From: Corallium rubrum
Taxonomy: Eukaryota > Cnidaria > Anthozoa > Scleralcyonacea > Coralliidae
NCBI GenBank assembly: GCA_964035015.1
Contig: OZ036005.1
Span: 14,708,549 to 14,772,548, forward strand
DNA: 64,000 nucleotides
Reading direction: 5' to 3'
The translations under genes were made by a program, and so were the position numbers. Below the pieces are notes generated by a model. The model saw only the letters and a program-made list of their open reading frames with translations. It was not told the origin of the DNA and made no database searches. Every line of letters starts with the position of its first letter. The stretch's first letter is position 1. Below are positions 8,336 through 63,330 of this stretch, piece by piece.

Positions 8336-8566
8336 AATAATATTTATTTAGGATCCATCTTAGGTATATTAAAAGTACAATGGATTTACAATTTGAGTTA
8401 TTACTAATACTTATATATAGATATCTAAAATTTTACAAATATTAAAAACCAATATTAAAACCTACATTATATGTACAATTCAATTACGACATGCTCTTGG
8501 AATAAATGAGTTCTTATGCCGATCTGTTCCCGATATTATCATGTTCAAGTCATTATTCTGATTTCT
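8331..8566 (-). mobile_element. LINE 3' end inserted in Gypsy integrase
   Basis: The Gypsy frame is interrupted by about 235 bp. On the minus strand the insert encodes the last residues of a non-LTR RT protein (ISGTDRHKNSFIPR, then a stop). An AT-rich 3' tail ending AATAAATATTATTATCA follows. It is a strongly 5'-truncated insertion. Confidence 0.7.
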
Positions 8567-8569
8567 TGA

Positions 8570-9225
8570 TGCCTTGATGACCTTGATGGGCGAGCGTTTG
8601 AGCGTGGTTACGTAAGGAACTAGGTAGTAGTAGGATTTGGGTTCCTCGGAGGATGATGTCGTTGTTGGCGGACATGATAAGTTCATGTCGAATTTTCTGG
8701 AGTGCTTGTGGCACCCCCGTCCTGACTTCGGGTTGTGAATCAGTCTCGTACAGTTTGTGCCATTTGTTATGCTGGATGAGTTCTTTTAGTCGTTGAAAGG
8801 TGGGATCACTTTTCGTGGCTTCTATGACAGCGGGTAGCGTCAATGCTTTTGGAACCGCGTGTTCGGCGACGAAATGGATGTATTCCTCAGCTTGTTGAGC
8901 CGCACGGGACATCGTCGCAGTGGGAACCGGGTGTCGAGGCATGTAATCAGCCGGATTGTCTTTGCCTGTTGCATACTGGTTGTTGGCTTGGTACTGTTGC
9001 AATTTGAGCAACCATCGTTCTATGCGTGCGTTTGGTTTGGCTGTCGGGTTGGCGAAGATCTGCTCCAGTGACTTGTGATCAGTTATAACGGTGAATGGAG
9101 AACCAAAAATATAGAGATGAAAATGTTTACATGCCCAGACGATACTGAGGGCTTCTCGTTCGGTCTGGGAGTATCGTTGCTCTATAGGGGTGAGAGAACG
9201 ACTGGCATACGCGATGACTCGATAC
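8570..9225 (-). pseudogene. Gypsy 1 RNase H and tether region
   Basis: Degrades the RNA strand of the replication hybrid. Translation of the minus strand shows TPIEQRYSQTEREALSIVWA and then HFHLYIFGSPFTVITDHKSLE, carrying the catalytic Glu and Asp of Gypsy RNase H. GKDNPADYMPRHPV is the end of the domain. A non-conserved spacer leads into the integrase zinc-binding region. The frame is mostly open. Confidence 0.85.
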
Positions 9226-9228
9226 CCT

Positions 9229-10072
9229 TCATTCTGTGCTTTCTTGGGTCAGGAGAAATGTCATCAGCTGAGAAGACGTATCCATAAAACTCAAGAGTGG
9301 GTTTGTTAATTCACATTTGCTTGGGTTGACTGTGAGGTCTTTAGGTTGAAGGCATTGGAAGACAGCGTGAAGTGCGCGATCACGATCATCTTTGGTCTTG
9401 CCGAAAACGATGATATCATCGCTGATGTTTTGAGCATCGTCGATACCTTCGAGGACTTTTTGGATTGTCGGCTGCAAAATCTTGGCGGCGGATGTTGTCC
9501 CAAAGTTTAGATGCGTATACTGACGTAATCCTTTATGAGTGGAGAACGTGGTAATGTATCTGGACTCGGGGTGAATTTCAAGTTGATGATAGCCAGATTT
9601 GAGGTCAATTTTGGAGAAAACACAGGAGCCGTTGAGGTCGTGGATGAGGTCGTCTACGGTGGGGGTGACGTATCGTTCCCCTTGGATAGCGCGATTTGGT
9701 AAGCGCATGTCAATGCACATTCTGATTTCGTTGGGATTCTTCGGCTTTGGTGCGACAACAACAGCTAGGCGATACCCAAGGAGTGGGGCCATCGACGGGT
9801 TCGATTTTTCCTTGCTGTTCGAGGCGTTCGAGTTCAGTTTCTAACTTTTTATGCATGTGGAACGGAATGCGACGGTGTGGTTGAGCAACTGCTGCTACCT
9901 TGCGATCAATATGCAATTTCACTTGATGATCTTTAAGTTTTCCTATTCCAGTAAAAACACTTGGATATTGCGTTTCGAGGCTGGTCAGTGTGTTATCACA
10001 CCGGCACTTGTGGCGTTTACCTTGAGTTTTGAGTTGGATTAAGTTCAGTTGGATAGCTAAGAAGGGAACCAT
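9229..10072 (-). pseudogene. Gypsy 1 reverse transcriptase
   Basis: The N-terminal segment (10072-9710) has HRRIPFHMHKKLETELERL and the motif IEPVDGPTPWVSP. The next frame (9792-9229) has EIRMCIDMRLPNRAI, VFSKIDLKSGYHQLEI (first catalytic Asp) and ISDDIIVFGKTKDDRD, where SDD stands for the YxDD box. The two segments are in different frames, and another shift occurs near 9250. The typical length of about 450 residues is preserved overall. Confidence 0.88.
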
Positions 10073-10118
10073 ATGTTCCTTTAACCACGCACATCACAGC
10101 CGGTGTGAGACGTGTTTT

Positions 10119-10779
10119 TTATTCAATATGAGTTGTGATTTTGCCAAGAACAGTTAATGGACGTTGAGATCCATAAGCATGGACTTTGATATTAGCTGAA
10201 CATAGTTTGAGCGGTTGAGCTCGTGTTCTTTGTAAATTTTGGTATGCGGCTTCGTCGATAATATTGACACTGGCGCCAAAATCAATTAACACGGCGGTAA
10301 GTACCCCGGCGATCTGGACCACACATTGTACTGATTGAAGACTATTGACTAAAAAATGTGACGGGGTGGTAGATTGGCTGTTGACTGTGAAGATATATTC
10401 TTCGTCCGAGTCGTGGAAATCGGGTGATGGAGGGTTGCTGATTTGAAAAACGCGTTTGGAATGTGGGAATTGGCGTTGCGGTGTCGTGCTGGGCAATTGG
10501 TTGCGTGGAAACGGGTCAGATTGCATGTCACGAGATCTCGGGCGACAACAACGAGCAAAATGTTTAATTTTACCGCAATGTCTACACGGGTTCTGGGCCG
10601 TTAAGGTGAGGATATGGATGCCCACAGTTACCGCAGAGGTTTGACGTTCCCTGGATACATGCTAGTGCATTTGTACACAACACTTCCGTTATCACTGGCA
10701 CAGATGAACTCGCTCTTTCTTTGTGATATTTTGTAAGAGGACATGTTATGCCAACTGATGCAATGTTTTCTTCCGTCAT
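10119..10779 (-). pseudogene. Gypsy 1 gag zinc knuckles and aspartic protease
   Basis: The minus-strand segment 10779-10582 ends with a first zinc-binding motif, CGNCGHPYPH. After a frameshift, 10625-10119 has a second knuckle, CRHCGKIKHFARCC. It then encodes a retropepsin-like domain with AVLIDFGASVNIID, in which the usual Asp-Ser/Thr-Gly is Asp-Phe-Gly. That substitution would probably impair catalysis. Paired knuckles before the protease are common in metazoan Gypsy elements. Confidence 0.8.
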
Positions 10780-20561: not shown

Positions 20562-22552
20562 GATTCTCCCAAACAAATGCTAGGTATATATGTATATATT
20601 TCTACCCTTGAATTCGAGTTCAAGCTTTTAACCCCCTGGTCCTAGCTCCGTGCCCCCGGCTCCCAGCTCCGAGCCCCCGGGTTCTAGCTCCAAGCCCTTA
20701 GCTCCTAGCTCCGAGCCCCCTGCTCCTGGCTCCGAGCCTTTGGCTCCTGGCTCCGAGCCCCCCGGGTCCTAGCTCCGTGCCCTTGGCCCCGAGCCCCCCC
20801 CGGGTCCTGGCTTCGAGCGCCCGAGTCCTAGCTCCGAGCCCTTTGCTCCTAACTCCGAGCCCTTTCCTCCTCCTGTTTCTCTTCCTTCTCCTCTTCCTCG
20901 TCTTTTTTCTTTCTACTCCTCTTTCTCCTCCTCCTCCTCTTTCTCCTCCTCCTCCTCTTTCTCCAAATTGTTGGGGGTTACCCTGGGGATGATTGGGGTA
21001 TCTCGGAGGTGATTGGGGGTACCCAAGGGGTGTTTGGGGGTTACACAGGTGTGTTTGGGGGTTACCTCAGGGGTGATTGGGGTGTCCGGGGGTGTTTGGG
21101 GGGTACTCCTGTGGTGATTGGAGCATCTCGGGGGGGGTGGTGGGGGGGGGGGGGTGGTGTTTGGGGGTTACCCTTGGGGTGATGGGGTATCCCGGGCGTG
21201 TTTGGGGGTTACCCCTGGGGTGATTATAAGACTAAGCCTATATAGTCCTAAGACTAATACTATAGTCCTAAGATTATTGTCCTTAATTAGAATATAGCCC
21301 TAAGACTAAGACTATAGTCCTAAGATTAAGACTACATAGTCCTAAGACTAAGACTATATAGTCCTAAGACTGAGATTATAGTCCTAAGACTATTGTCCTA
21401 AGAATATAGTCCTAAGACTAAGACTATAATCCTAAGACTAAGACTACATAGTCCTAAGACTAAGTCTATAGTCCATAGTCTAAGACTGTAGTCCTAAGAC
21501 TATAGCCTTAGAAAAATTACAATCTTTTATAAGACCACCAAATCATTGAAAAAATACAAACGAAATATTCTCATAATGCCTAAAGATTTAAAATAGGAGG
21601 TGTTTAATCCAGAAACCCCACACGGGAAAGCGATCGTTTGTCAAACATTTGGAACTTCGGGAATTAGCTATAGCCGGAGAGCTATCGGTTGTGACGTTTC
21701 ACACGGGCGGTTGAGTAACAGTAGAGGGTCCCAAAGGAGCCTGAGACGAATGAAGGACGCGACGCGGTTTGTCTATGGTAACACTGTTAATGACCTTCTC
21801 GAGTAGACTTGCCCAAGCGCTTAATCCTCTTAATTGCCCCTAATGAGTTTTTGTTTTGTCTCCTGCACGTGCACTGAGGATAAATATGCAAATATCACAC
21901 TTAGTAACAGAAAGCGTAACAGCCAGCTTGAAGAGTTATTCCGTTTATATTTTCTCATGAAATCATTGATCATTCTTCCTACGGCTTCTCGAATTGATTC
22001 TTCATCCAAGGATTCGTATACTCTATACACTAGGGTTAGATAAGGGATAATTCGACCAAAACTGTCAACATTCATCTCTTCGTAAATAACACTCAGCTCA
22101 GATTACTTAACCAAAAACCCGCTATATTCCCCCAAACCAGGTTTAAGATAAAAAATATAAAGTGTCTCTATCCATTTCTGTTTCGTTCCCCTACAAATTA
22201 GGCTAAAGTAAACGATAACTCTCTAAAATTGTTAACACTTATTGCCATCAAATGTGTATAAGACTGTTTGATCATTTAGGTTCTAACTAATATAATATTC
22301 AAGGTCTCCATATTATTCAAATAATATTCAGGTTTCACAAGAGCAGTTATCTCTGCCAATTCAGACACTTAGGCTGTTCAAAACTCTCTATAATCCTCCA
22401 GACAAGGTTTAAGATAAAAAAATATAAAGTGTGTCTACTAATTGCTCTTTAGTTCCTTGTAAAGAACGTCTGTACGTCTACATGTCCCACAACTGTCGAC
22501 TGGCGCTTGAGTTAAGTGTGTAAATGAAAATGTAATTACTAATACTTATAAG

Positions 22553-22906
22553 AGTAGCTTAATCCGCACAACCAGGACCGGAAGTGACGTCACAGGGGTG
22601 TGCGCACAGGCTGACGTCATTACGGGTGTGCGCACACCTTTACGTAAATCCTTAAAAAACTAATAAAGATTTTTTTAAAAATTACCATGAACAAGCGCGG
22701 CGGAACATTTTAAAGATTTTGGAAAGATCATGAGGCAACTCTTAACTTTCTGATGGATTTGAGACAGAGTTCAGGTTTTTCTGATTACCAAGCCATTTTA
22801 AATTATCTTTCTTTTTGGATTAATGATCACAATGACAATGTGCATTAGACACTTTTATAAGTTTATTTACACTGAATTACTTACACCGATGTTTTATAAG
22901 TTTTTG
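22553..22906. other. Non-coding; TGTGCGCACA motifs
   Basis: No gene. GGGTGTGCGCACA occurs at about 22597 and 22624, each containing the palindrome TGTGCGCACA, next to TGACGTCA-like words. A third copy lies at about 24138. Confidence 0.5.
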
Positions 22907-23575
22907 TTATACCAAAGACTTTCGTTTGCCAATAATGAAATCCTATTGGTCAAATCATGGTCACGTGTGGTTCAACAAACTCAATGTTTCTTTCTGCCGA
23001 GGGAAACATTGAACTGTTTCCCTCTGACGTCAACAATGAAGAGGGAAACAGTGCAATGTTTCCCTCTGACGTCGCTTTAACCATGCGTTGTTCACGTGAA
23101 TACACGATTATTGCATCAGATCAAGAACTTTGGACTCTTCGGGCATTTTGAAAACAAGAGCTTGTTTCGAGCTTGTTTGGTACGAAATAGTCCATTTTCT
23201 GAAAGAAAGAATTTCTATACATATCTTCAAAGGTCTGAAAAAGACTTGGAGAAATTTAAAGCTGTTCTTAGTGTTGAGTCTGGTGTATTTGTTTAGTTGA
23301 ATGACTTGAATTGAAATTACGAAGAAAAAGTGAAAGTGTTTTGGTAAGTCTTTTCGCCGTTTGCAAGTTTCAAGGCAGTTTTCTATTTTGTATTTTAAAA
23401 GTCTTTGGTATATAACAAAACGCTTGTTGACTTTTTCCTCGAGAAACATCGAGTTTTACGGTCCCTCAGGCTTCAATGTCACCCTCGGGCTAAAGCCCTC
23501 GGGTGACATTGAAGCCTTCGGGTCCGTATAAAACTCGATGTTTCTCTTGGCGCCAGTCAACAAGTGTATAATGTA
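22907..23575. repeat. Dispersed ~0.67 kb element, copy A
   Basis: Matches 42562-43232 along its length. It has partial inverted ends (TATACCAAAGACTTTCG at the left, AAAGTCTTTGGTATATAAC at 23398). It ends in a strong hairpin (about 23440-23550) with TGTCACCCTCGGGCTAAAGC and GGGTGACATTGAAGCC. Non-coding. Confidence 0.85.
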
Positions 23576-23787
23576 CACTGAATTACTTAGACTGATGTTT
23601 TATAAGTCTATGTGAGAATTTTCTACCATAACTAAACACTTAAGTATACTGTTCAGGTTTTTACGTTGTTTGTTTATGTAAATGGTTACACGAGAAAGAA
23701 ACGTCATGTGGTTATTTTCAATGGGTACCTGAACCAACAAAGTCGTCCCACGTTGAAGAGCCGTTCATTTTTGTGAGATGAGAAGAT

Positions 23788-23965
23788 GAGCACATGCTCA
23801 TAACTGCTCTGAGCACTTGCTCATTTGCTCATAACTGCTCATGCATGAGCACTTGCTCATTTGCTCATAACTGCTCTGAGCACTTGCTCATTTGCTCATA
23901 ACTGCTCATGAGCACTTGCTCATTTGCTCATAACTGCTCATGAGCACTTGCTCATTTGCTCATAT
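23788..23965. repeat. GCTC minisatellite (iteron-like)
   Basis: About five tandem units of roughly 33-36 bp, GAGCACTTGCTCATTTGCTC then ATAACTGCTC. Each has the internal palindrome GAGCACTTGCTC. It abuts the left 15-bp inverted repeat of the Rep-like module. Confidence 0.9.
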
Positions 23966-24029
23966 GGCCCGATCACGCCCGATGGCCCGATAGAAGGTAC
24001 GGCTTAATTCTGGTGTACATTTTTTTTTC

Positions 24030-24292
24030 TTCAAAAGGGAGATAAAGGGGGCTTGACGAATACGAAAATGTATGCATTTTTAAGGCGAAACATTGAGACG
24101 CGTCTAGTAATTAGCACCATTTGGCTGAATTAAAGGGGTGTGCGCACATGATGTGACTGCTCATAACTGCTCTGAGCACTTGCTCATTTGCTCATAACTG
24201 CTTTGAGCACTTGCTCATTTGCTCAAAAGAAGGAAAAAGGGGGTTAGGCGAATGCGAAAATGTATACATTTTTAGAGCAAAATATTGTTGCT
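24030..24292. repeat. Tandem duplication of ~195 bp with iterons
   Basis: AAAATGTATGCATTTTTA (about 24065) recurs as AAAATGTATACATTTTTA (about 24258), each preceded by a purine-rich AAAGGGGG stretch and a GCGAA(T/C)-like word. The GCTC repeat (about 24158-24225) lies between. It is downstream of the small frames, where a rolling-circle element could keep its origin. Confidence 0.7.
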
Positions 24293-24395
24293 AGGATACT
24301 GCTTTGCTTGGATGCATGCATAAATTAACACACAGATTAACGTTTTAAACAATTTATTTCTTAAAGTATAACAATTTTACAAAAATAAACAGTTA

Positions 24396-24605
24396 TTAAA
24401 CATATTGTCCGGCTTTTACAGTCTTTTCCAGCTTCGAACGTTTGACTTTATACATTGTTCCGTCTTCCGCTAGTAGGAGTTTACGTTTTTGTCCCTTGTG
24501 TTCCACAGACTTGACATCCAAAACTTTGACTACACTTCGTTTCTTTTCTGCAGGTAATAGAGGAATTTTTTCGTAGTCGAGTACACCAGCCCAGTCGCCT
24601 TGCAT
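24396..24605 (-). CDS. Small basic protein of the Rep-like module (third frame)
   Basis: A 69-residue frame from a true ATG (MQGDWAG) to TAA. It is basic, with VVKVLDVKSVEHKGQKRKLL and MYKVKRSKLEKTVKAGQYV; the alternating hydrophobic pattern suggests a small beta-rich nucleic-acid-binding fold. It begins nine bases after the stop of the preceding frame, on the same strand. I do not recognise the family. The tight spacing suggests it belongs to the same transcription unit as the Rep-like gene. Confidence 0.5.
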   Translation of the reverse strand: MQGDWAGVLDYEKIPLLPAEKKRSVVKVLDVKSVEHKGQKRKLLLAEDGTMYKVKRSKLEKTVKAGQYV

Positions 24606-24614
24606 TGTATAACT

Positions 24615-24923
24615 TTACACAGTGCAAACTTCCTTCTGGTAGAAGATAACTTTGTTTTGGATACGATGATTTTGCATTCTGTTGTTAATTGTTCTTTCTA
24701 TTGCCACTAGGGTGTGGGTCGAACCAAGAGGTAACTCGGCCAAATTTCGCATATGTTTGTAAGGCACAATTTCTTCTCTCGTCAGTGTTAGTGTAGCCTT
24801 CGAAGACGTTGTCGATTCCACGTGCACATTTCTCAACTTTACTCTTTCTTATTTTATCTCCTTCGTTACTTGCTCCTGCAGTTGTTTAATAGCGTGTTTT
24901 GCCATGTCTTCGGCGAAGGTCAT
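24615..24923 (-). pseudogene. Second frame of the Rep-like module, one stop
   Basis: Starts at ATG 24923, overlapping the TGA of the large gene as ATGA. It encodes MTFAEDMAKHAIKQLQEQVT, meets an in-frame TAA at 24851-24849, then continues open to 24615. The second part has HMRNLAELPLGSTHTLVAIE, which resembles IHLKELPLGSYNVMAMRET near the C-terminus of the large gene. A duplicated small domain (perhaps OB-like, ssDNA-binding) is therefore likely; that function is inference. Confidence 0.5.
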
Positions 24924-26894
24924 ATATTGCAGTAGATCACAACGTGCCTTTGCGATGTACGTCTCCATCCTGTTATATTTAGGACTGCCAGTGGTTTCTC
25001 GAAGAGTGTGAGGTAATTTCGCTTAGGATCTCGTATCTTCTCTTTGTCAGCATCCGTCAGGTTATCGCGTAAGTACGTTTCGATATACTTGTTGGAATAG
25101 CAGAGTCCTAGCGTTCGGTTTCGGTCTGTTGCTACTAACATGATATACTTCACTCCAAACTGGGTTTGGGTCTCTCGCATGGCCATGACGTTGTAGGATC
25201 CTAAAGGCAGTTCTTTTAAGTGGATGATCTTGTTGTCGGAAAAAGCGCTGCTATAATTATCCAATAACCGTAACCTGTTCCTTTTTTCTGCGATCGCATC
25301 TTCGAAAGGTTGTCGACTCTCTCGTATATCCTTCGCTGCTTCTCCGGCTACCTCTTTCCACTGTTCGTTTCGTTCTTTCTCGGGGGTACTGCGTTGCTTT
25401 ACTGGTAGTTTAACTTCCAAAATATCTGTTCTTAACAAATTCATATCCACTTTACAGTTCTTGTTTCCCTGCACGCGTGCAAGATAAGGCGTACAGTGTC
25501 CGTGGGCCACTAAACCAGCTTTCTCCAGCAGTTGTAAATTATCCTCTTTACTTCCTTCGTACCAGCTGTAGATACCACCGTTGGATACCAAGCGTGTTGT
25601 AAAAGGCCCCCGTCTTTTCGACTTTTAAAATAGCGAGCTCCGGAAATGTCTACAAATACATCTTTGGGTTTTACACGTCTAACTTTACTTCGATCACAAA
25701 CTTCAATGACATCCACAGGCAGTTTAGAGCTAAGTGTAAGGTTGGCAAGGCACCAGTTTTCTTTTTCAGACCATTTCGCTACAAACTGTCCACTTATATC
25801 CTTCGTTGTCTCGTTGTACCTTTAGACGATCAAACCAATATCCCGAGTTCTGTCGATGACCACTAAGCTATGCAACATGGAGTCACAGTAAGCTTTCCAA
25901 GTGTCCGAGAACGGTGTAGAGTAAACTAGTGTAGGTGAAACATATTCTGTAATACGCAGAAGAGTATCCTCCATAAGGTTGTCACTTGGAACACGGTCCT
26001 TGCGATAAAAGGTCACTTCGGCCCGCGTCAAACCGCGATCTTTGGCTAAATCGCGAGCGTTTGCCAAACGTGTATCTTTCTGGCAAACCCAATCTTTTCA
26101 GTGCTGCCCAACAGTTTCTCGTACGCTCTTGCTTTCCAGCATTTGCACCATTTTGTTGTAAATTTTACTACGGGTTGTTAGACCGTCTACAGTTTCCATA
26201 TACGTCAGACAGTTGTTGCCAACTTGGTCAGCGTTATCTAAAATAGTTCTATCACCATCTTTTGTACTGCCTTGGATACGAAAACCTTTCTTCGTTGTCG
26301 GATGCTGGATGACTTCGTCCTTGTCAAAGCTGCCAGCATAATCCATTGTGACGTCAATATCTTTTAAAAATATATTTCTTATCTTGTACTCGTCGGTTCT
26401 CAGTAGGAACTCGAGAACTTTGGAGTGTTCTTCGTCTGCACAGGCAATTTTAAACTCTTGTACGTAATACAAAATTTTCTCAGTCCCTTTGGATTTAAGT
26501 CTACCGTAGACTTTATCCAACCCATCTGTTGTTAGCTCTTCCGTTAGGGGTGATAAGGCGACGGCTTTGACTTTACATTTACGCAAGCCGTATTGGTAAA
26601 CATATCTCGGATATGCTTGTTGACATGACCAACTTCCGTATACGTTTTCTTCGCTGCCACGAAATAATCGGGAACGTATACATAAAGCAGAAAGTTGTCC
26701 ACGAAATTCTTGCTACATGACGTAAAACCAATACTGTCTTGCTTCCCATGCTTGTTAAAGTTGACAGCCCCAGTTCTGCTAAAGGAATTCTCCTTTGCAA
26801 TCTTCTCCAAGACCACTGTACTCTTGTTGGATCGACCAAGAATAGCACGACGAGAAAAAAGACCCAAAGCTTGCATATTGCCAAGTAAAGTCAA
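24920..26894 (-). pseudogene. Rep_trans-like rolling-circle initiator (decayed)
   Basis: About 650 codons, with a likely ATG at 26876 (MQALGLF). Visible motifs in order: FLKDIDVTMDYAGSFD (near 26345), an Asp-x-Thr-x-Asp-like metal-binding pattern; NNCLTYMET; TTRSKIYNKMVQML (near 26150), the Tyr-Asn-Lys pattern; and GLTRAEVTFYRKD (near 26000), an Arg-x-Glu beta strand. This order of motifs is that of plasmid Rep_trans (PF02486-like) initiators, where a Tyr nicks the origin. That comparison is by pattern only. Downstream are KWSEKENWCLANLTLS, GGIYSWYEGSKEDN and the ELPLGSYNVMAMRET domain. Breaks: frameshift near 26590, TGA at about 26098-26100 (where Trp is plausible), TAA at about 25822-25824, frameshift near 25600. 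Alternatively it is an unrelated cnidarian-specific transposon protein. Confidence 0.45.
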
Positions 26895-27092
26895 ATATTT
26901 TCCAAGAGATGTTCACAGCACCAACATGTGACAGAGAATGAGTAAAAAACTGCGAAGGGCGCTTTATATAACGCATTTTTGCAAGCTAGTCACTTTTTGT
27001 AGTGACGTCACAATAACAGAGCGTGACAAGCCCGGGCTTGCCCAGGTTAGGACGTCTGGTCAGCAATCGGGCCATCGGGCCGTATAATGCCT

Positions 27093-27596
27093 TAAAAGGC
27101 CAAACCGGGCAAAAAGAAGACAATCACCTATGTATCCTCTAGTCTCAGTGTAGATGATCTGGCTTTACTGGACAACCTCAGGGAAATAAGTAAGATGAAG
27201 ACACACTGCTATAGGATGTTGGCTAAACGGTATAGAAACCTTCACCTTGGGGCTACAATGGTGTCAGTGATTCTGAATGCTAGTGGAGTGGTAGTTGGCT
27301 CAGTAACTCTCAACCCCATACCTATTGCTGTACTAAGTGGTTTATGGCTAATGCTGCAGACTCTACTTCAGAAGAGTAGTGTGGCAGATAAAAAGACAGG
27401 TTGTAAAGAGGCATGGAGACTATACCGTGAGATGACTGATAGAATAACCCATATAATCCAGGGGGTTGAGGACTACAACCATGATGCGTTGACCAGTGAC
27501 ATAACCCTCATTGACGGAATAGTAGTAGGATCAAATGCAGTACCTATTAATGGCATCAGTGAAAAGTACTATAGGAAGTATACCAAAGCCGGATAA
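27093..27596 (+). CDS. Two-helix membrane protein of unknown family
   Basis: Open from 27093, with first ATG at 27195 (133 residues to the stop). The in-frame stretch upstream of the ATG (TYVSSSLSVDDLALLDNLRE) looks coding, so the true start may be in an exon further left. It has a charged N-terminal helix (CYRMLAKRYRNLHL). Two hydrophobic segments follow, VSVILNASGVVVGSVTLNPI and PIAVLSGLWLMLQTLL, then a charged helical tail beginning EAWRLYREMTDR. This layout recalls short two-helix membrane proteins (SLATT-like), and similar frames recur in cnidarian repeats as I recall. It lies divergently next to the Rep-like module, outside its right inverted repeat. No function assigned. Confidence 0.5.
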
Positions 27597-42529: not shown

Positions 42530-43305
42530 TCTACCTTCGGTAGCCCGAGTAATAAAGCAAATTGTTATATACCAAAGCCTTTCGTTTGCCAAAGATGAAA
42601 TCCTATTGGTCAAATCATGGTCACGTGTTGTTCAACAAACTCAATGTTTCTTTCTGCCGAGGGAAACATTGCACTGTTTCCCTCTGACGTCAACAACGAA
42701 GAAGGAAACAGTGCAATGTTTACCTCTGACGTCAGCTTTAATCATGCGTTGTTCACGTGAATACACAATGATTATTGCATCAGATCAAGAACTTTGGACT
42801 TTTCGGAACATTTTGAAAACAAGAGCTGTTTCGAGCTTGTTTGCTATGAAAATAGTCCATTTTCCAAAGGAAGAATATCTATACACATCTTCAAGGAAGG
42901 TCTCAAGAAAACCTGGATAAATTTAAAGCTGTTCTTTGTACTTGTCGAGTCTGGTGTATTTGTTTAGTTGAATTGAAATTACGAAGACAAAGTCAAAGTG
43001 TTTTGGTAAGTCTTTTTGCCTTTTGCAAGTTTCGAGTCAACTTTGGTATTTTGTATTTTAAAAGTCTTTGGTATATAACAAAACGCTTGTTGACTTTTGC
43101 CTCGAGAAACATCGAGTTTTACGGTCCCTCAGGCTTTAATGTCACCCTCGGGCTAAAGCCCTCGGGTGACATTGAAGCCTTCGGGTCCGTAAAACTCGAT
43201 GTTTCCCTCGGCGCCAGTCAACAAGTGTATAATATATTTAATAATGTCATAATTACTCGGGCTACTGTGGTAGCCGAGTCACAGAATAAAGAACTGAGCA
43301 GAAGG
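42530..43305. repeat. Dispersed element copy B inside an outer inverted repeat
   Basis: 42562-43232 matches copy A at 22907-23575, including the TTTGGTATATAACAAAACGC block and the terminal hairpin. Here it is bracketed by GGTAGCCCGAGTAAT (about 42540) and its reverse complement ATTACTCGGGCTAC (about 43252). Such bracketing is not seen at copy A. Confidence 0.8.
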
Positions 43306-52699: not shown

Positions 52700-53666
52700 G
52701 GGGTAACCACATCAGTTATTACCAATTACTGTGGGCCCGAAATACAATTACATATACTGACTTCCATGTCCTAGGGTTATCAGTCATGTAGAAATGATTA
52801 AGGGCATAATTATAGTAGTTAAGTAGTTTATTTTTGAAAGATTCTAATGATAGAGACTTGTGCCTGATGGAGTCTGGTAAAGTATTCCATACTCTGCACA
52901 CGCGTATAAAGAAGGATCGTTGACGTGTTAGGGTTTTGCTTTTTTTTTTTGAACATATGTTGTGACATCTTGGTTATGAGTAGATCTCGTTATTCTGCCC
53001 GTCTGCCTTGGAAGTGGTAGTATGTTGCTATTGATATCAACTAAGCCATTATTAGCCTTATAAAAGAAGATCAAATCCATCAGCTCGTGCCGACAAGTAA
53101 CTGGTAGGAGATTGCATTGTTTAAGCCTCTGAATATATGATATTTCTGTCAGGAAGGGTAACTTCAAAATATATTTAGTAGCCCGTCTCTGTACCCGTTC
53201 CACACGTTTTATCAGCTCGATAGATTGTGGAGTCCATACCTGGGTTGCGTAACCCAGATGCGATCGAACAAGGGCCAGATACAGAGCTCGACGTGTACCA
53301 ATGTTCTTTATGTTCCAGGAGGATCTGCGGACAAAGCCTAATAACTTGTTTGCCTTGCTGCACTGTTGGTGGACTTGTTTTGACCATGTCAGTTTACTAA
53401 AAATCCAAACTCCTAGGTCCTTTTCTACCTCTGATTCCCCTAAATCTTTTTCCTGAATGGTATACGAAAAATGGGTAGGATTTTTCTTTTTTGTAACTCG
53501 CTGGAGCTTGCATTTCTGCGGATTGAACTGCAAGGCTGACGATTCTGACCAAAGAGTAAGGCTGTTCAAATCAGACTGTTAGGCTTAGCTTTGGCGTCAG
53601 TTTCACTCTCGACTGTCCTATATATTTTCGTATCGTCGGCAAAAAGCGCGTTGATCATTGTTGAGA
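52700..53666 (-). pseudogene. LINE (CR1/Jockey-like) RT C-terminal half
   Basis: The minus strand starts with the RT catalytic box INALFADDTKIYR (near 53650). After a frameshift it continues with NSLTLWSESSALQFNPQKCK, KDLGVWIFSKLTWSKQV and RALYLALVRSHLGYATQVW, then VERVQRRATKYILKLP. After another break come FFIRVCRVWNTLPDSIRHKS and a stop at about 52722. This is the normal end of a non-LTR RT protein. The 5' part is truncated. It could be the same family as the fragment at 16.8-17.65 kb but covers a different part of the protein. Confidence 0.88.
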
Positions 53667-54260
53667 CAAATCAATTCATGTGTTACCATTGTCTAACGTA
53701 GTAAAGCCTAGAACGAAAGCGATATATTATCACATCCTTTTAACAATGCGATTAGCGATCGGGTTTCCTGTTTTTTCCCCCCAATTTACCTATAAAATTG
53801 TCATTTTAAGATTAGAGTTAAGACTAGAAGTTACTATCGCAAGGAAGTGCTGCTTGGTTAATAGTTGGTGGGATAAGGCCATTGTGAAAAGCATTCAAGT
53901 ACATATTGTCTCCTTCCACAATACTCGGTCGATAGTATATGAATTCCAGTCATTCACTTGTATAGTTTGTGTTGTTAACAGCGCTGATACTCATATAAAA
54001 AGAGCACTGTTTTCCTCGAGACTGCCCACTAAAACGTTCATGGCCTTGATGAATACTTCCACAAGCAAAGCGCACTTTGCTGCAGCCTCGTACCCAGGCC
54101 CTTTACTGTTGTCATACCCATCTGTTGCATGGTCAGGGGGGTGGGTCAGAATCAACATCTCGAAATCTCCAAATTCCAAAATTGCTATACGCAGCCATAC
54201 ATGATCACAAGTAACCCAAGAGAGATGTCAAGAATAGTGTGCTGCCTGTCTGGTGGGAGG
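53667..54260. repeat. Dispersed repeat, copy left of the DIRS element
   Basis: Blocks AGTTACTATCGCAAG-GAAG, TTTTCCTCGAGACTG and GTCAAGAATAGT-TGCTGCC recur in the same order and orientation at 60080-61300, where they are further apart. An open frame at 53680-54204 has no recognisable domain. Confidence 0.65.
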
Positions 54261-55000
54261 CAGCAATTAGGGTTGGGGCCGGGCTTGGGTTAGGGATTTG
54301 GTTGGATTTTAAGTAAGGGCTAGAATTAAGCATTATTGTAAGTTATTAAGGGCATTTAAAAATTAATAATTATTGTCAATTCTAGATGATACGTGAGAGT
54401 ATATGCTGATATGTCGTAAGGTTATCAAGCATTTTCAGTATGTTTTAGAGAACAATTTACGTTGAATTAATTCCAATCAAAATTTACAATGAATTCCAAT
54501 CGTTCACTTGAATAGTTTATGTTGTTAACAGCGTTAACAGCCCAATTTGTACTAATTAGCAAAGAAATATTTTACGTGGTGTTTCCACAAAACTTATTTA
54601 TATCAATTTACGTTGTTGAATCATTATCTATACGTATAGGCCAAATAAATACCAGTATCCGCATGTGCGCATTGCGTACCTATTTTTAAATAAAGCAACG
54701 CGGTTCCGCTGTTTGTGGCCTGAATCTTTCAGATAAACAAATCATGTCTGTATATTATCCATATGTACGGAATTATACTTCACACTTTCTGGTCGAAATG
54801 TATGGAATATTTACGGTATGACGTTGTCCAATTGGTGATGGAGGCACCATATAAGCCATCACACCAGGTCTTATCTCCGATTTTTTTCAATGGTGCGAAG
54901 GAGCCACATCAAGGTACGTTAGACAGGTAAGTTTTAGTTTAGTTGCTATACTGCATCTTTTCAGTTTCAGTGATTTCTTTCTATCCTGTCCAGAAAAGAT

Positions 55001-56330
55001 ATGAGTTCGAGCAAACGCTCTAGGTCTAGAAATCGTGAGGCTTCAAAATCACGTTCAAAATCCCCTCGTCCAAGCAAGAGACGACGCTCTGGGTCCAAAC
55101 ACGATGAACATCACAACTCTGGTAATGATGGTAATTCATCAACTGCTTTAAACCAAATACTGGAAAAGATAAATGGCATAAGTTCAGCTGTTGAGAACCT
55201 CAACAGTCGTCTGACGTGCTTAGAGTCAGACCAGAACTCACATCTGCCACATGGAAAAATGGCGCCTGATCCTACCGGAGAAGACGAACTATCAGCGGAA
55301 AAACAAGACTTTGATTCGTTTGACCAACTTTCGGTCATGGTGCCACAGGACCCAGAAATGGCAAGTTCAAGTCCAGAAATCCTGGACGCCCAAATAGGCC
55401 ACAAAGATGGCCCCACAACGAGCAAAGCGCTCAACCTTTATACAAACAATGACAAAGACAACGACAACAATGGTGGGAAAAATCTTCCCGAAACTAGCAG
55501 TGCTGTAAAACCACTACCTTTTCACCCTGTTGCAGAGGCGCCTAACTGGGCACCTTCAGCGAATCTGAAAGAGATTTTATGGACGAATTTCCGTCGAAGT
55601 TTATCTTCCTCTCAAATATTCAGTATTTTAGAAGACACGTCACTTCCAGAGATTGACGTGTTTACAAGCCGAACCCAGACAAGGCACTTTCCGATCAAAT
55701 TCCACAAAAATATAAAAAATCGGTCGGGAATCGCGATAAAGAACTACTCAAAGTTCAACGCCATGTTTTAAACGTGGCTTCTCCGTTAACAGCCCTACAT
55801 GATTTGCTAGAAACAAGAAATGACCAATGATGACTTGCTGGACATCGTCGAGAAAGCACTTTGTCTCTTGGGGAATGCCTCTAATTCCATGTCTGTGTCA
55901 CGCCGATCGAAAATTCTTTATTCTATCAATCCAAGCAAAGTTTCGCTTGCCGTAGCGTCCTTTCCTAACGCGGCAAGTATTTATTCGGAAACGACATCAG
56001 CAAACTGGCAGCAGACAGTGCCGACATTGCTCGCAACTTACAAAAGAATCTTTCACAGACACACTCGCATAATAATACGACTCCCTGGCCTAAAACCCAA
56101 TTTCATAAATATCAGTCAAAAAAAGAAAAATTTCGTCCAGCTCAGTCTGAGCCAAGCCGATTTCCCCATGCGGGGACAACAAAAGGCAAGTTTCCTTTTC
56201 CCCAACGGCAACAGTCCATTCGAGGCAAACCAAACAACAACTTCCGCTAACGGGAAGACTACGTTATTTTTATACAAACTGGCAAAATGTCACTCGGGAT
56301 CCAGTTATTTTAAACATTGTTCAAGGTTAC
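55001..56330 (+). pseudogene. DIRS ORF1 (gag-like)
   Basis: From ATG 55001: an Arg/Ser-rich basic start (KRSRSRNREASKSRSK), then a short coiled coil (LNQILEKINGISSAVENLNS). An acidic middle leads to SSSQIFSILEDTSLPEIDVF. A frameshift near 55675 ends the first frame at 55771. Coding resumes in another frame with NDDLLDIVEKALCLLGNASN (from 55820). Beyond about 55970 the frame changes again. The protein would package element RNA; DIRS ORF1 is poorly conserved, so this rests mainly on position and composition. Confidence 0.65.
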
Positions 56331-56339
56331 AAATTTCAC

Positions 56340-57925
56340 TTTCAAAGCCAGCCGTTTCAGTTAGTAATTCGCGCTCAAACTTTGACTCAAAACCCTCTTT
56401 TAGTCGTCGAGGAAATATTGTCGCTTCTGAACAAAGGAGCAATTATTCAGGTGCCTTTCAGCCAGGACGCGTTTTATCACAAAATGTTTTTTAATCCCGA
56501 AGAAAAACGGGGGTCAGCGTCCGGTGCTAGATCTGAGTCCACTGAACGAGTTCATCGAAACCGAGCATTTCAAAATGGAAAATCTTTCGACAATAAAATC
56601 TCACATAAACAAAGGGGATTTCATGATAATTTTTGATCTGACAGGCGCTTACCTGACTGTCCCCATTCACACAACATCCCAACGATTTCTTCATTTTCTG
56701 TGGCAAAACAAGTCTTACCAATTTACGACAATGCCGTTCGGTTCTGTTCACCAAACTCCTGAAACCCGTGGTCGCTTGGCTACGAGGTCAAGGAGTTCGG
56801 TTAATAATCTACCTTCGACGATTTGCTATTAATAGCTGCGTCAATCGAAACCCTGAACTATCACAAACAAATGACCATCAGATTACTGGAATCTTCAGGT
56901 TTCTTGATCAACTACCAAAAGTCGCAACTGACTCCAATGCAAAAGATCCTATTTCTAGGCATGCTAATCGACTCTACGGCAATGCAGTTCATTTTACCTC
57001 CTCAAAAGTCCACTTAATTCAGAAGGAATGTCGCCTCTTGCTAAAGGCGATGCGTCCGTCTATATCCGGCAAATATCCCGAGTACTGGGACTCCTCGAAT
57101 TTTGCCGTCCGGCAGTTTGGTCTGCGCCACTGCATTATCGTCACCTCCAGGAACTCCAGATAGAGGCCTTGCAACAATGGTAAAATTACGACACACAAGT
57201 GAGCTTGTCCGAGAACGCCAAAGTGGACTTGTCTTGGTGGGTAAACAATCTTCCATTGTTAAAAGGCAGTCGCATTCTTCCTCCAACAGCGGATCTGACA
57301 ATAATCTCGATGCCTCCAAGATGGGATGGGGAGCATCTTGGAGCAACCTGAGAACAGGTGGGAAGTGGACCAGAACAGAATTGGAAGTCCACATAAACAT
57401 TCTGGAACTCAGGGCAGCCTTTTTCTTCAGGAAAAGTAATTTGTCTAAAGATGGACAATACCACAGCAGTGGCATATCTGAACAACATGGGCGGCACTCA
57501 CTGCCCCCAGCTTCTGCAGTTGACTCTCGAGATCTGGGAATGGTGCGAGCAAAGAAACCTGTCTCTTCTAGCCCAGTACATCCCAGGCAAAACAAACATC
57601 GCAGCAGACTCGGACAACGAGGGACTGAGGGACTGGAACAACTGGCAACTGAAGCCATCAGTGATTTTTCCCATGATCAAACACTGTCAAGTAGACCTAT
57701 TTGCCTCACGGTTAACCCACCGACTAAAAAAAATATGTCAGTTGGAGACCAGACCCAAATGCAGCCCACACAGATGCATTCACCATGGATTGGTCCAACA
57801 TAACAAAACCAAGAAGGACTGTGCGACTCTAGTGTTGGTAGCTCCAGTGTGGTCAGCCCAGCCGTGGTGGCCACTACTAGATGCTGATAGACTACCCAGT
57901 ATACCTGTGAAACAACACTAGTCTA
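56340..57925 (+). pseudogene. DIRS reverse transcriptase and RNase H
   Basis: Segments in order: NPLLVVEEILSLLNKGAIIQ with VPFSQDAFYHKMFF; LDLSPLNEFIETEHFKMENL; FMIIFDLTGAYLTVPIHTTS (first catalytic Asp); QFTTMPFG. The YLDD box is split at about 56815, where one extra T turns the frame (CTACCTTCGACGATTTG). LESSGFLINYQKSQLTPMQK follows. RNase H has SKMGWGASWSNLRTGGKWT, NILELRAAFFF and MDNTTAVAYLNNMGG, then IPGKTNIAADSDN (usually DxxSR). The tail has WQLKPSVIFPMIKHCQVDLF and VLVAPVWSAQPWWPLL. At least five frameshifts; the Dam-like methyltransferase of some DIRS elements is not evident, and a deletion lies near 57795. Confidence 0.85.
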
Positions 57926-57928
57926 CTA

Positions 57929-58949
57929 GTGGAGGCATCCAATCCAGACGCAGTACACCCACTATTTCCCGTACTCAAACTGGCCGTTTGGAAAATATCC
58001 AGCAACACTTTCAAACAACGGGAATTTCAGAAACAGCTGTCGAACTCATTACCAACAGTGTTAAGACGTCAATCACCAAAACCTACAACTGCTCTTGGTC
58101 TCAGTGGAGTAGCTGGTGTGAGGAACGGCAAAGTCATCCCGTATTTGGTTCAATCTCTGAAATTCTAACATTTTTGCCTGAGCAGTTCTCTAAGGGTAAA
58201 TAATATAGAACAATAAATGTCCAGCACATTGTGATGTAGATAAGAAACCGATTGGTCAACAGCCTTTTGTTATTAAATTAATGAAAGGCATTTCAATTTC
58301 GCGACCTCCTCAACCTCAATATCAGATCACATGAGACGTAGTAACGGTTACTAATTATTTAACAAATCTTGGTGAAAATTCTACATTGTCTTTTAAACAA
58401 CTATCGCAAAAGCTTTGTATGCTCATGGCACTTACCTGCCCTGAGAGAAGTCCTATCATGGCTACATTGGATATGAGGTACTTACGTCATTATTCAGAAG
58501 GTGTAAAATTCCTCCAAACTACTTATCGCAAGCGCTCTCACAGTGGCAAACTTGGAGAGTCAATTTACCCGAAGTTTACGGAAGAAACTCTTTGTCCAGC
58601 TCAGTGTCTTGACATATACTTAGACAAAACCAAGGAATGGCGGCAAGAATCTAACGACAACATGCAACAACTATTATTTCTTTCGCTGAGGAAACCTCAT
58701 AAACCCGTCACTTCTTCCACGCTTTCTCGTTGGCTCAAAGAGGTTATTTGCCTTTCTGGAATCAAAGAAGGCATTTTCAAAGGTCACTCTGCCAGAAGCG
58801 CTTCGACATCGGCGGCGAGACGTGCAGGTCTAAGTGTGGACTCAATAATGTCCATAGAAGATTGGACAAACCTATCAACTTTCAATCGTTTTTATTATAA
58901 ACCTTCTCTTCCTGTCTCTCACAGGACATCAATTTTGTCTCAGAAATAG
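57929..58949 (+). pseudogene. DIRS tyrosine recombinase
   Basis: Integrates the circular DIRS DNA. The N-terminal SAM-like part has SWSQWSSWCEERQSHPVFGS and ILTFLPEQFSKGK, then meets a TAA at about 58201. Coding resumes (about 58205-58385, with stops) and becomes open from 58386: SFKQLSQKLCMLMALTCPER carries the first Arg region. KGHSARSASTSAARRAGLSV carries the His-x-x-Arg box, and FNRFYYKPSL the terminal catalytic Tyr. All usual catalytic residues are visible but the gene is interrupted. Confidence 0.88.
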
Positions 58950-62150: not shown

Positions 62151-62700
62151 ACTACTCACGATTTTGCTTTCAAATTGCAAGTGTCACTGGTGCCCCATGT
62201 GGAGTGATGTACTCTCCGAAGATCTTCTGTGAAATAGATGTGGGTATTGGTCTTGAAGGGCATAAAGATTGACAGACTTGGTAAAATAATCTTGGGTGAC
62301 CAGTATGTAGCTGTTTTTCCTCGCTTGGATCGTGGCGTTTTGGTTAACTCGGTAGCCACAAACACTTCCGGAGTATTGGCAGTAATGAACTGTAGCGGTG
62401 CGCGGGGGTATTTGGGCGGCATCTTCTGAGTTGCACAAGGTTGACAACGATCACACCACTGTTGAGCATCTCTGTAGAACCCTGCCAGTAGAATCGCTGT
62501 CTGATGAGATCGCACATTTTCCTCACACCAAAATGGCCTGCAAGCGTTCCAGAGTGTAATTCAGCAAGGATCACTGGAATTACGGCTAGAGGGACAACCT
62601 GTTGAAAGCGTTGACCATCGGTAGGGTGGGGTCTGCAAAGGAGGCCTTATTTTACTACGAGCTCGTGGTATATACGCCAAAACGTTTGTATTCTGTGCCC
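62151..62700 (-). pseudogene. Gypsy 2 integrase N-terminal half
   Basis: AELHSGTLAGHFGVRKMCDL with IRQRFYW, the His-His part of the zinc-binding domain, is followed by CDRCQPCATQK carrying the two Cys. The core start is present only in part (ATYWSPKIILPSLSIF and, in the next frame, YFTKSVNLYALQDQ). The rest of the core and C-terminus are absent; AT-rich sequence follows. Confidence 0.85.
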
Positions 62701-63330
62701 GTGTCGTTTGATTGCCTCGTTCGAAGGTCTTGATCCTACAGCTATCCACTGTAATACTTCAGTAATTACAGGATCAGCCTTTTGGGCATTCACCATATCG
62801 TGCCATCTGGGAATAGTGTTGAGTTGGTCCTCTCGTCCGCTCGTCGACCTTACCGCTACATTCAACACGGCCGGTGCGTTATGCTCAGTGTCTCCCTGTG
62901 ACTTATCGAATCCTAACCTGCTCAGTGCATCGGCAACCACGTTCTTTTGGCCTTCGATGTGTTCGATATCAAAGTCGTACTCTGCAATGTCACTAAGCAT
63001 TCGTCCTCTACGTGCATATGGATCTTTCATGGTCTTCAAACGAGACAAGGGGAGGTGATCCATTCTCAAACGAAACTTGACGCCAGGTAGATTGTAGCGG
63101 AAATGAAGAAGAGTATCTCGGATTGCCAATGCTTCACGGTCAAAAGTTGAATAGCCTTTTCACGTTTGGATAAGGTTCGGCTAAAATAAGCTATAGGACA
63201 CAGCGTTCCCGTACTATCTCTTTGTGTCAGGGTTCCACCAATACCAACATCAGAAACATAGTTACCACAAATTATTTCCTTGGATCTGGGTGGCGTAGGA
63301 CAGGAGCGCTTGATATGCAATGCTTCAGTT
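62650..63330 (-). pseudogene. Gypsy 2 RNase H
   Basis: DVGIGGTLTQRDSTGTLCPI and AYFSRTLSKREKA (first Asp region), then, in another frame, FRLRMDHLPLSRLKTMKDP with the conserved Asp-His. IEGQKNVVADALSRLGF is the typical domain end with Asp. The break between frames is near 63150. Confidence 0.88.

Follow-up and report, generated by a model that had tools for sequence, protein, structure and literature searches.

A probable eukaryotic DNA transposon family with a Rep_trans-like protein, often found within Polintons, in Corallium rubrum

A broken Rep-like cassette

The DNA under study is a 64-kb stretch of Corallium rubrum (hereafter the window; C23:14708549-14772548, within a 474-Mb genome of 312 contigs), which holds a damaged cassette with a broken gene for a Rep_trans-like protein. 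We consider it likely that this cassette is a broken copy of a eukaryotic class of DNA transposon that is moved by a Rep_trans-like nickase and often rides on Polintons. Its parts, together with a 15-mer to its left, are the following:

24226..27110, no strand assigned: Rep-like cassette copy with left arm, broken gene and promoter region, the right part being absent
24226..24588, plus strand: left inverted arm, which begins AAAGAAGGAAAAAGG and contains the palindrome AAAATGTATACATTTT and the final codons of the large gene
24396..26912, minus strand: broken Rep_trans-like gene (about 870 codons when whole), spread over several frames
26158..26160, minus strand: predicted catalytic tyrosine codon (KIYNK; Y237 in the relative P0001), read directly in the sequence
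27066..27080, minus strand: right 15-mer GCCCGATGGCCCGAT, an internal motif upstream of the Rep-like gene, common to most fetched copies
23977..23991, plus strand: left 15-mer GCCCGATGGCCCGAT, a motif of a neighbouring element of the L025-L027/L029 type, not an end

The left boundary, 24226, stands directly 3' of a TCA at 24223-24225, and homology to other copies stops at 27110, where complete copies run on into a second gene and an inverted arm; the window cassette therefore lacks both the second gene and the right arm. Some 86 nt present in L009 and L013, the copies compared, are absent at about 24702. A 166-aa open frame without Pfam match lies at the cassette break (27096-27593).

A preliminary description of the locus had taken the exact inverted 15-bp repeats for the ends of an element. 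Both repeats were recovered at their positions, and so was the large broken minus-strand gene between them, in which DVTMD, KIYNK and TRAEV occur in that order. Their role as ends had to be given up: in most fetched copies the right 15-mer lies internally, ahead of the Rep-like gene, its left counterpart belongs, as the same motif, to the neighbouring element, and the ends of other copies do not coincide with the repeats, an outcome that had been named beforehand as speaking against the proposal. The repeats are two copies of a promoter-side motif. The long arms, the second gene, the TCA rule and the Polinton setting set out below are additions to that description.

Anatomy of the complete copies

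A genome search with window positions 24000-27050 as query returned at least 121 matching pieces (40 of 401 candidates were scored), and by this measure the window unit belongs to a multicopy family. Twenty loci were fetched for comparison, and ends were examined in 24 sequences (23 loci plus the window). A complete copy measures about 3.5-4 kb, of which about 3 kb is enclosed by inverted arms of about 320-375 bp (L018, with a shorter match, is the exception in the arm comparison). The arms start 5'-AAAG, the left-arm sequence is present again, inverted, at the opposite end, and the large gene runs into the arms with its last codons. This leftward gene is open in 6 of the 20 loci (L015, L016, L017, L019, L021 and L023), with frames of 868-894 codons from stop to stop, or 856-864 aa from the methionine. 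A second, divergent gene, encoding at most 115 aa and a single zinc-finger-like motif (CPxFGC...HL..H), was found in 17 of the loci scanned, composites without Rep included (L013 5579-5791, L021 5773-6114 and L023 5228-5551, among others). A GCCCGATGGCCCGAT-like motif, with at most 2 mismatches, lies between the two genes in most fetched copies.

Shorter forms also occur. Paired ends span only 219 bp in L016 (6822-7040), while L025 (1718-6642), L026 (2005-5879) and L027 contain small, largely palindromic elements with cassette arms, in which a gene of about 168-188 aa replaces Rep. Both the L016 pair and the L025-L027 elements with their other middle gene look like non-autonomous relatives. 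As a sign of fold-back copying, the similarity of the arms gave a mixed outcome: the two arms of one copy resemble each other more than those of any other in three of nine cases (L009, L021 narrowly, and L023), but not in L013, L015-L018 and L020.

Cassette ends and the TCA target

We located 47 sharp ends in 21 of the 24 sequences, 41 of them with TCA before AAAG or AAGG and the remaining six preceded by GCA, AGC, CCA or TCC. The flanks outside the cassette are mostly unlike between loci. Unoccupied sites were sought among the fetched loci and the window, using the flanks minus the TCA, and were found for 29 of the 47 ends. The unoccupied site reads exactly TCA in 23 of these 29 by the top-ranked match, or in 24 by the majority of matches, while TCA at 60 other offsets reached a mean of 0.63 and a maximum of 4 out of 29. 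As some ends copy one site (both inner ends of L018, for example), there are fewer independent sites, about 21-22 of them with TCA and 3 lacking it. The unoccupied sites, with the junction marked and the loci carrying them where noted, include:

L009, left end: CCTTCA^ATAGACC (L029-L031)
L009, right end: CCATCA^TGAAATT (L017, L018, L032)
L018: AACATCA^GAACGCC
L017: GCCTCA^CCACTG
Window: GCTCA^TAACTG

The window site belongs to a repeat array, beside which lies a second, solitary cassette end:

23795..23964, plus strand: GCTCAT tandem array (unit length 31-32 bp) belonging to the Polinton-bounded host element
24158..24225, plus strand: second stretch of the GCTCAT array, whose final TCA (24223-24225) is the cassette target
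24034..24095, plus strand: solo, diverged cassette end with about 80% to the 64-bp end, following a TCA at 24031-24033

The GCTC repeats had been read as origin iterons. The arrays are real, and their unoccupied reading makes them target sequence in place of iterons. For the solo end an unoccupied relative in L029 reads CTTCA^AGGACTT.

Target-site duplication (TSD) was not found over 20 end pairings, 17 of which lack any direct repeat of at least 3 nt; L020 has one of 3 nt, and two L026 pairings, with mirrored palindromic flanks, have 4 and 8 nt. The same flank appears, mirrored, at both ends of L018, L026 and L027. The two TCA of L009 are on opposite strands, with the Polinton DNA between them seemingly gone, as pieced together from several loci and not from one intact locus. 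These junctions show, on the sequences compared, that the ends join the target exactly after TCA without target-site duplication, and that the two ends of a cassette can sit at separate TCA sites or at mirrored copies of a single half-site. Taken together, the TCA match, the absence of duplication, the mirrored flanks and the opposite-strand TCA of L009 suggest that each end was joined independently to the 3' side of a TCA.

Fold and conserved residues of the large protein

An AlphaFold model of the N-terminal domain alone, compared with 350,542 PDB chains, had as its two best matches the staphylococcal Rep_trans protein RepDE (4cwe_A, E 4.7e-4, match probability 0.98; 4cwc_A, E 7.6e-4, match probability 0.94), which were the sole PDB matches at E <=1e-3. 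On this model, the domain has the TBP-like crescent fold of the Rep_trans type, and OB folds probably follow it on the C-terminal side.

Conservation was scored over 55 aligned relatives, in P0001 numbering. The predicted metal ligands D60, D172 and E284 are conserved and lie in the model on separate strands (58-69, 167-178 and 280-288), being the presumed counterparts of RepDE D46, D142 and E214, each likewise on its own strand. The putative catalytic Y237, on model strand 230-238, forms with K239 and Q242 a Y-x-K-x-x-Q motif kept in 55 of 55 relatives; the Rep_trans pattern is YxKxxE, and the glutamine matches Q184 of RepSTK1. Motif IV (W/LxRxE) appears as L280-x-R282-x-E284, kept in 53, 54 and 55 of the 55, respectively. 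In motif II (T/SxY/ExG), T222 is T or S in 53 of 54, E225 is one position off, and there is no matching glycine. In the alignment, most of the described Rep_trans motif residues are invariant or nearly so.

Two observations count against membership in Rep_trans. Motif I (RxD) is unmatched, with D170-x-D172 keeping the aspartate and replacing the arginine by another aspartate, and no PF02486 match appeared in five family proteins at E 1, nor in the genome at E 10. The structure prediction suggested in the preliminary description returned a Rep-type core with RepDE as best matches. Its call of Rep_trans homology, made from motif order, is well supported by these model matches and by the conserved motif residues.

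Other searches returned little: no Pfam family passed the cut-off in the seven gene segments that were scanned, in agreement with the initial statement that no DDE, reverse transcriptase or tyrosine recombinase is visible; PHROGs gave nothing better than E 0.13 with the broken window pieces; and the PDB searched by sequence gave chance-level rows only (TAF1 at 0.08, for instance). A histone match in P0115 (E 0.0058) is under the Pfam cut-off. PF25227 (DUF7845) was not listed at E <=1 for five family proteins, the presence of that model in the library being unchecked. As for an HUH signature, there is no HxH among the invariant or nearly invariant residues, and Tyr237 lies on a strand, not on a helix. 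Phage B5 was discarded as a Rep_trans comparison seed, as it carries Rep_1.

The same fold could be read otherwise, as that of a non-catalytic TBP- or OB-fold protein binding single-stranded DNA, with the cassette moved by another enzyme and TCA reflecting microhomology joining. Several points weigh in this direction and against a nickase: in the structure comparison the Z score of TBP equals or exceeds that of the Reps, LEF-3 and RPA appear among the matches, and the nickase activity of the Rep-like protein is a prediction from the model. We nevertheless regard such a protein as quite improbable, since the metal ligands, Tyr, Lys and Gln are kept in nearly all of the 55 relatives, as in RepDE, and TBP is not known to have these Rep_trans residues. 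Microhomology is also poorly compatible with a match limited to precisely TCA, the bases to either side of it varying.

Selection and relatives

Ratios of nonsynonymous to synonymous substitution (dN/dS) between lineages were 0.12 (dS about 1) and 0.05-0.07 (dS above 2, saturated), compared with 0.24 for L021 against L017 or L019 and 0.32 for L015-L016. The youngest pair, L017-L019, has a dS of 0.005, uninformative for dN/dS, and two pairs with L023 yielded no dS. As judged from these codon comparisons, the large protein has long been kept under purifying selection.

The family looks widespread, with 115 relatives of the full protein (P0001-P0115; identity down to 31%), one of them from EukProt, and 210 relatives retrieved by the domain profile, none of the 120 listed having a precomputed Pfam label. 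Many of P0001-P0115 are on contigs of just about 2.7-3.7 kb, which could be either repeat-collapsed pieces of assembly or free small replicons.

Bacteria and their phages, and more distantly archaea, are the described sources of this enzyme type, so that a recent capture of a rolling-circle plasmid or virus from a bacterium or phage might be envisaged, an origin that we hold to be very improbable. No relative was confirmed in prokaryote genomes or IMG/VR, searched by short peptide patterns only, nor in plasmids by tblastn, and a phage search made with one window piece only gave no match. Moreover, an old eukaryotic family is indicated by the 115 relatives reaching 31% identity, one of them from EukProt, and by dS values that are saturated between lineages within a single genome.

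Association with Polintons

The 20 loci and the window were scanned for Polinton-type ends (AGTAGCTTAATCC-type, at most 3 mismatches). PMC8097293 lists AGT ends and 6-bp duplications among the criteria for Mavericks. Five loci have both Polinton-type ends with identical 6-bp flanks: L009 (AATACC), L019 (CAGCCG), L022 (AAGGAG), L025 (GCTGGC) and L026 (CCTGTC). Among them, L019 carries an intact large frame, and the palindromic elements of L025 and L026 are bounded by Polinton-type ends with perfect duplications. L017 has two Polinton-type ends with unlike flanks; a single end lies within the stretch in L010, L013, L014, L020, L028 and the window; the remaining loci of the 20 have no pairable ends. 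The window end is:

22553..22640, plus strand: left Polinton-type terminal inverted repeat (TIR; 5'-AGTAGCTTAATCCG, then a GTGCGCACAGG repeat), with TATAAG before it at 22547-22552

The 64-kb window yielded no right partner for this end.

Polinton genes were found as well. L013 has a DNA_pol_B_2 match (4.3e-10) about 1.5 kb from the cassette, L024 an rve integrase frame (1.1e-13), and 199 DNA_pol_B_2 matches were counted in the genome. On contig C12, sequence of the L009 right arm (5598176-5598306) lies just upstream of PolB domains (5595356-5596831) within a 1387-codon frame. The host-Polinton features (PolB, AGT-type TIR and 6-bp TSD) were recorded across different loci, TIR and TSD in the five named above, PolB in L013 and, by way of C12, in linkage with the L009 right arm. 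In five places (C56, C51, C13, C37 and C258) a solo cassette end lies about 74 bp upstream of the PolB start, and one such place was read in sequence as L032; this position suggests that one cassette-made rearrangement spread with a Polinton lineage. Speaking against a general residence in Polintons, L015 stands between B-box and filamin-like frames. The cassette proper has no PolB, integrase, Polinton TIR or 6-bp TSD of its own. At the level of these loci, the scan shows that cassettes frequently reside inside Polinton-bounded elements.

Such residence raises the question of whether the Rep-like gene is simply a normal replication gene of Polintons or adintoviruses, the cassette moving only within those viruses by means of their integrase. 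Agreement with this would come from the five loci whose cassette or arms are enclosed by Polinton TIRs with a perfect 6-bp TSD, and from the five listed solo ends upstream of PolB. We judge it unlikely, given that the junctions fall at many unrelated TCA sites, that Polinton DNA seems to have been replaced at the L009 junctions, and that L015 is near non-Polinton frames. Furthermore, 39 listed PolB-start places match from the junction onward only, so that no cassette is joined there.

In a separate observation, L028 (1235) and L014 (8474), about 60 kb apart on contig C203, have facing Polinton-type ends with the same flank, TATGCC, as if bounding one very large or interrupted element.

Proposed mechanism and relation to known systems

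The insertion rule and the anatomy can be followed through the compared loci, whereas the nicking chemistry and the copying are inferred. In a transposon moved by a Rep_trans-like nickase, Tyr237 would nick TCA^AAAG at both inverted ends, and the protein, remaining linked to the 5' element end, would transfer that end onto the 3'-OH left by nicking at a target TCA. The OB-fold part may hold the displaced strand, while the element would be copied by rolling-circle or hairpin synthesis, using a host or Polinton polymerase. Joining of the cassette to Polinton DNA could then produce small composites with Polinton termini, insertable by the Polinton integrase. It is quite possible, if short of probable, that we are dealing with the first eukaryotic class of Rep_trans/TBP-fold transposons, joining both 5' ends to TCA without duplication and acting as a parasite of Polinton viruses, with whose DNA it would recombine into small, often palindromic composites copied and inserted by the polymerase and integrase of the virus.

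The cassette protein shares its TBP-like catalytic fold with the Rep_trans group (PF02486: pT181-type RepDE, RepSTK1, inovirus and some varidnavirus Reps, and relaxases of integrative and conjugative elements), as well as the D/D/E ligands and tyrosine on separate strands, YxKxx(E/Q) and LxRxE. It differs in lacking Pfam-level similarity, in the aspartate replacing the motif I arginine and in the probable extra OB folds and, unlike the replication of Rep_trans plasmids, the family is eukaryotic and inserts at TCA. Rep-Arvir (PF25227/DUF7845) of archaeal viruses and plasmids is likewise a distant TBP-fold relative of Rep_trans outside bacteria, but it drives viral or plasmid replication and has other C-terminal domains, while the cassette has no Pfam match.

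Helitrons, IS91 and Replitrons are nickase-driven and leave no target-site duplication. The cassette resembles them in the latter and, presumably, in the former. However, these HUH-fold systems have their tyrosine on a helix, whereas that of the cassette is modelled on a strand, and the cassette is set apart by its long inverted arms, by a TCA at each end and by the lack of a Pfam helicase match. Polintons/Mavericks, its frequent carriers, have AGT ends, 6-bp TSD and PolB, none of which the cassette has. Transpovirons differ from it in genes and ends. They and other riders are small elements living in or on a virus-like one, a way of life that the cassette would share.

A cautious reader could call the family a variant of rolling-circle transposons; its different nickase fold, inverted arms and TCA rule lead us to treat it as a separate new class, and the findings also fit the earlier proposal of a replicating transposon family that stands apart from the usual eukaryotic classes. 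According to PMC13107129, Rep_trans was apparently restricted to bacteria, archaeal Rep-Arvir being the first outside them. The passages on Rep_trans retrieved from the open-licence literature concern gut phages, bacteria and phages, and no eukaryotic Rep_trans element appeared among them (Repbase-type repeat libraries were outside this search). If true, a eukaryotic family would not only extend this nickase type to all three domains, but also place a second nickase fold beside HUH for eukaryotic transposons and offer a test case for the exploitation of integrated viruses by transposons. With its TCA rule, its sharp ends and native frames that are still intact, the family lends itself to a direct test of the idea.

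Other features of the window

A second interspersed repeat, which has inverted repeats, occurs at window positions 22908-23579, inside the Polinton arm, and 42561-43236, with 91-97% to L017 1-1143. Retroelement frames lie at 52928-58949, the last of which presumably encodes a DIRS-type tyrosine recombinase, and the segments 8553-10661 and 62647-63159 are what we take to be Gypsy-like gag/pol pieces.
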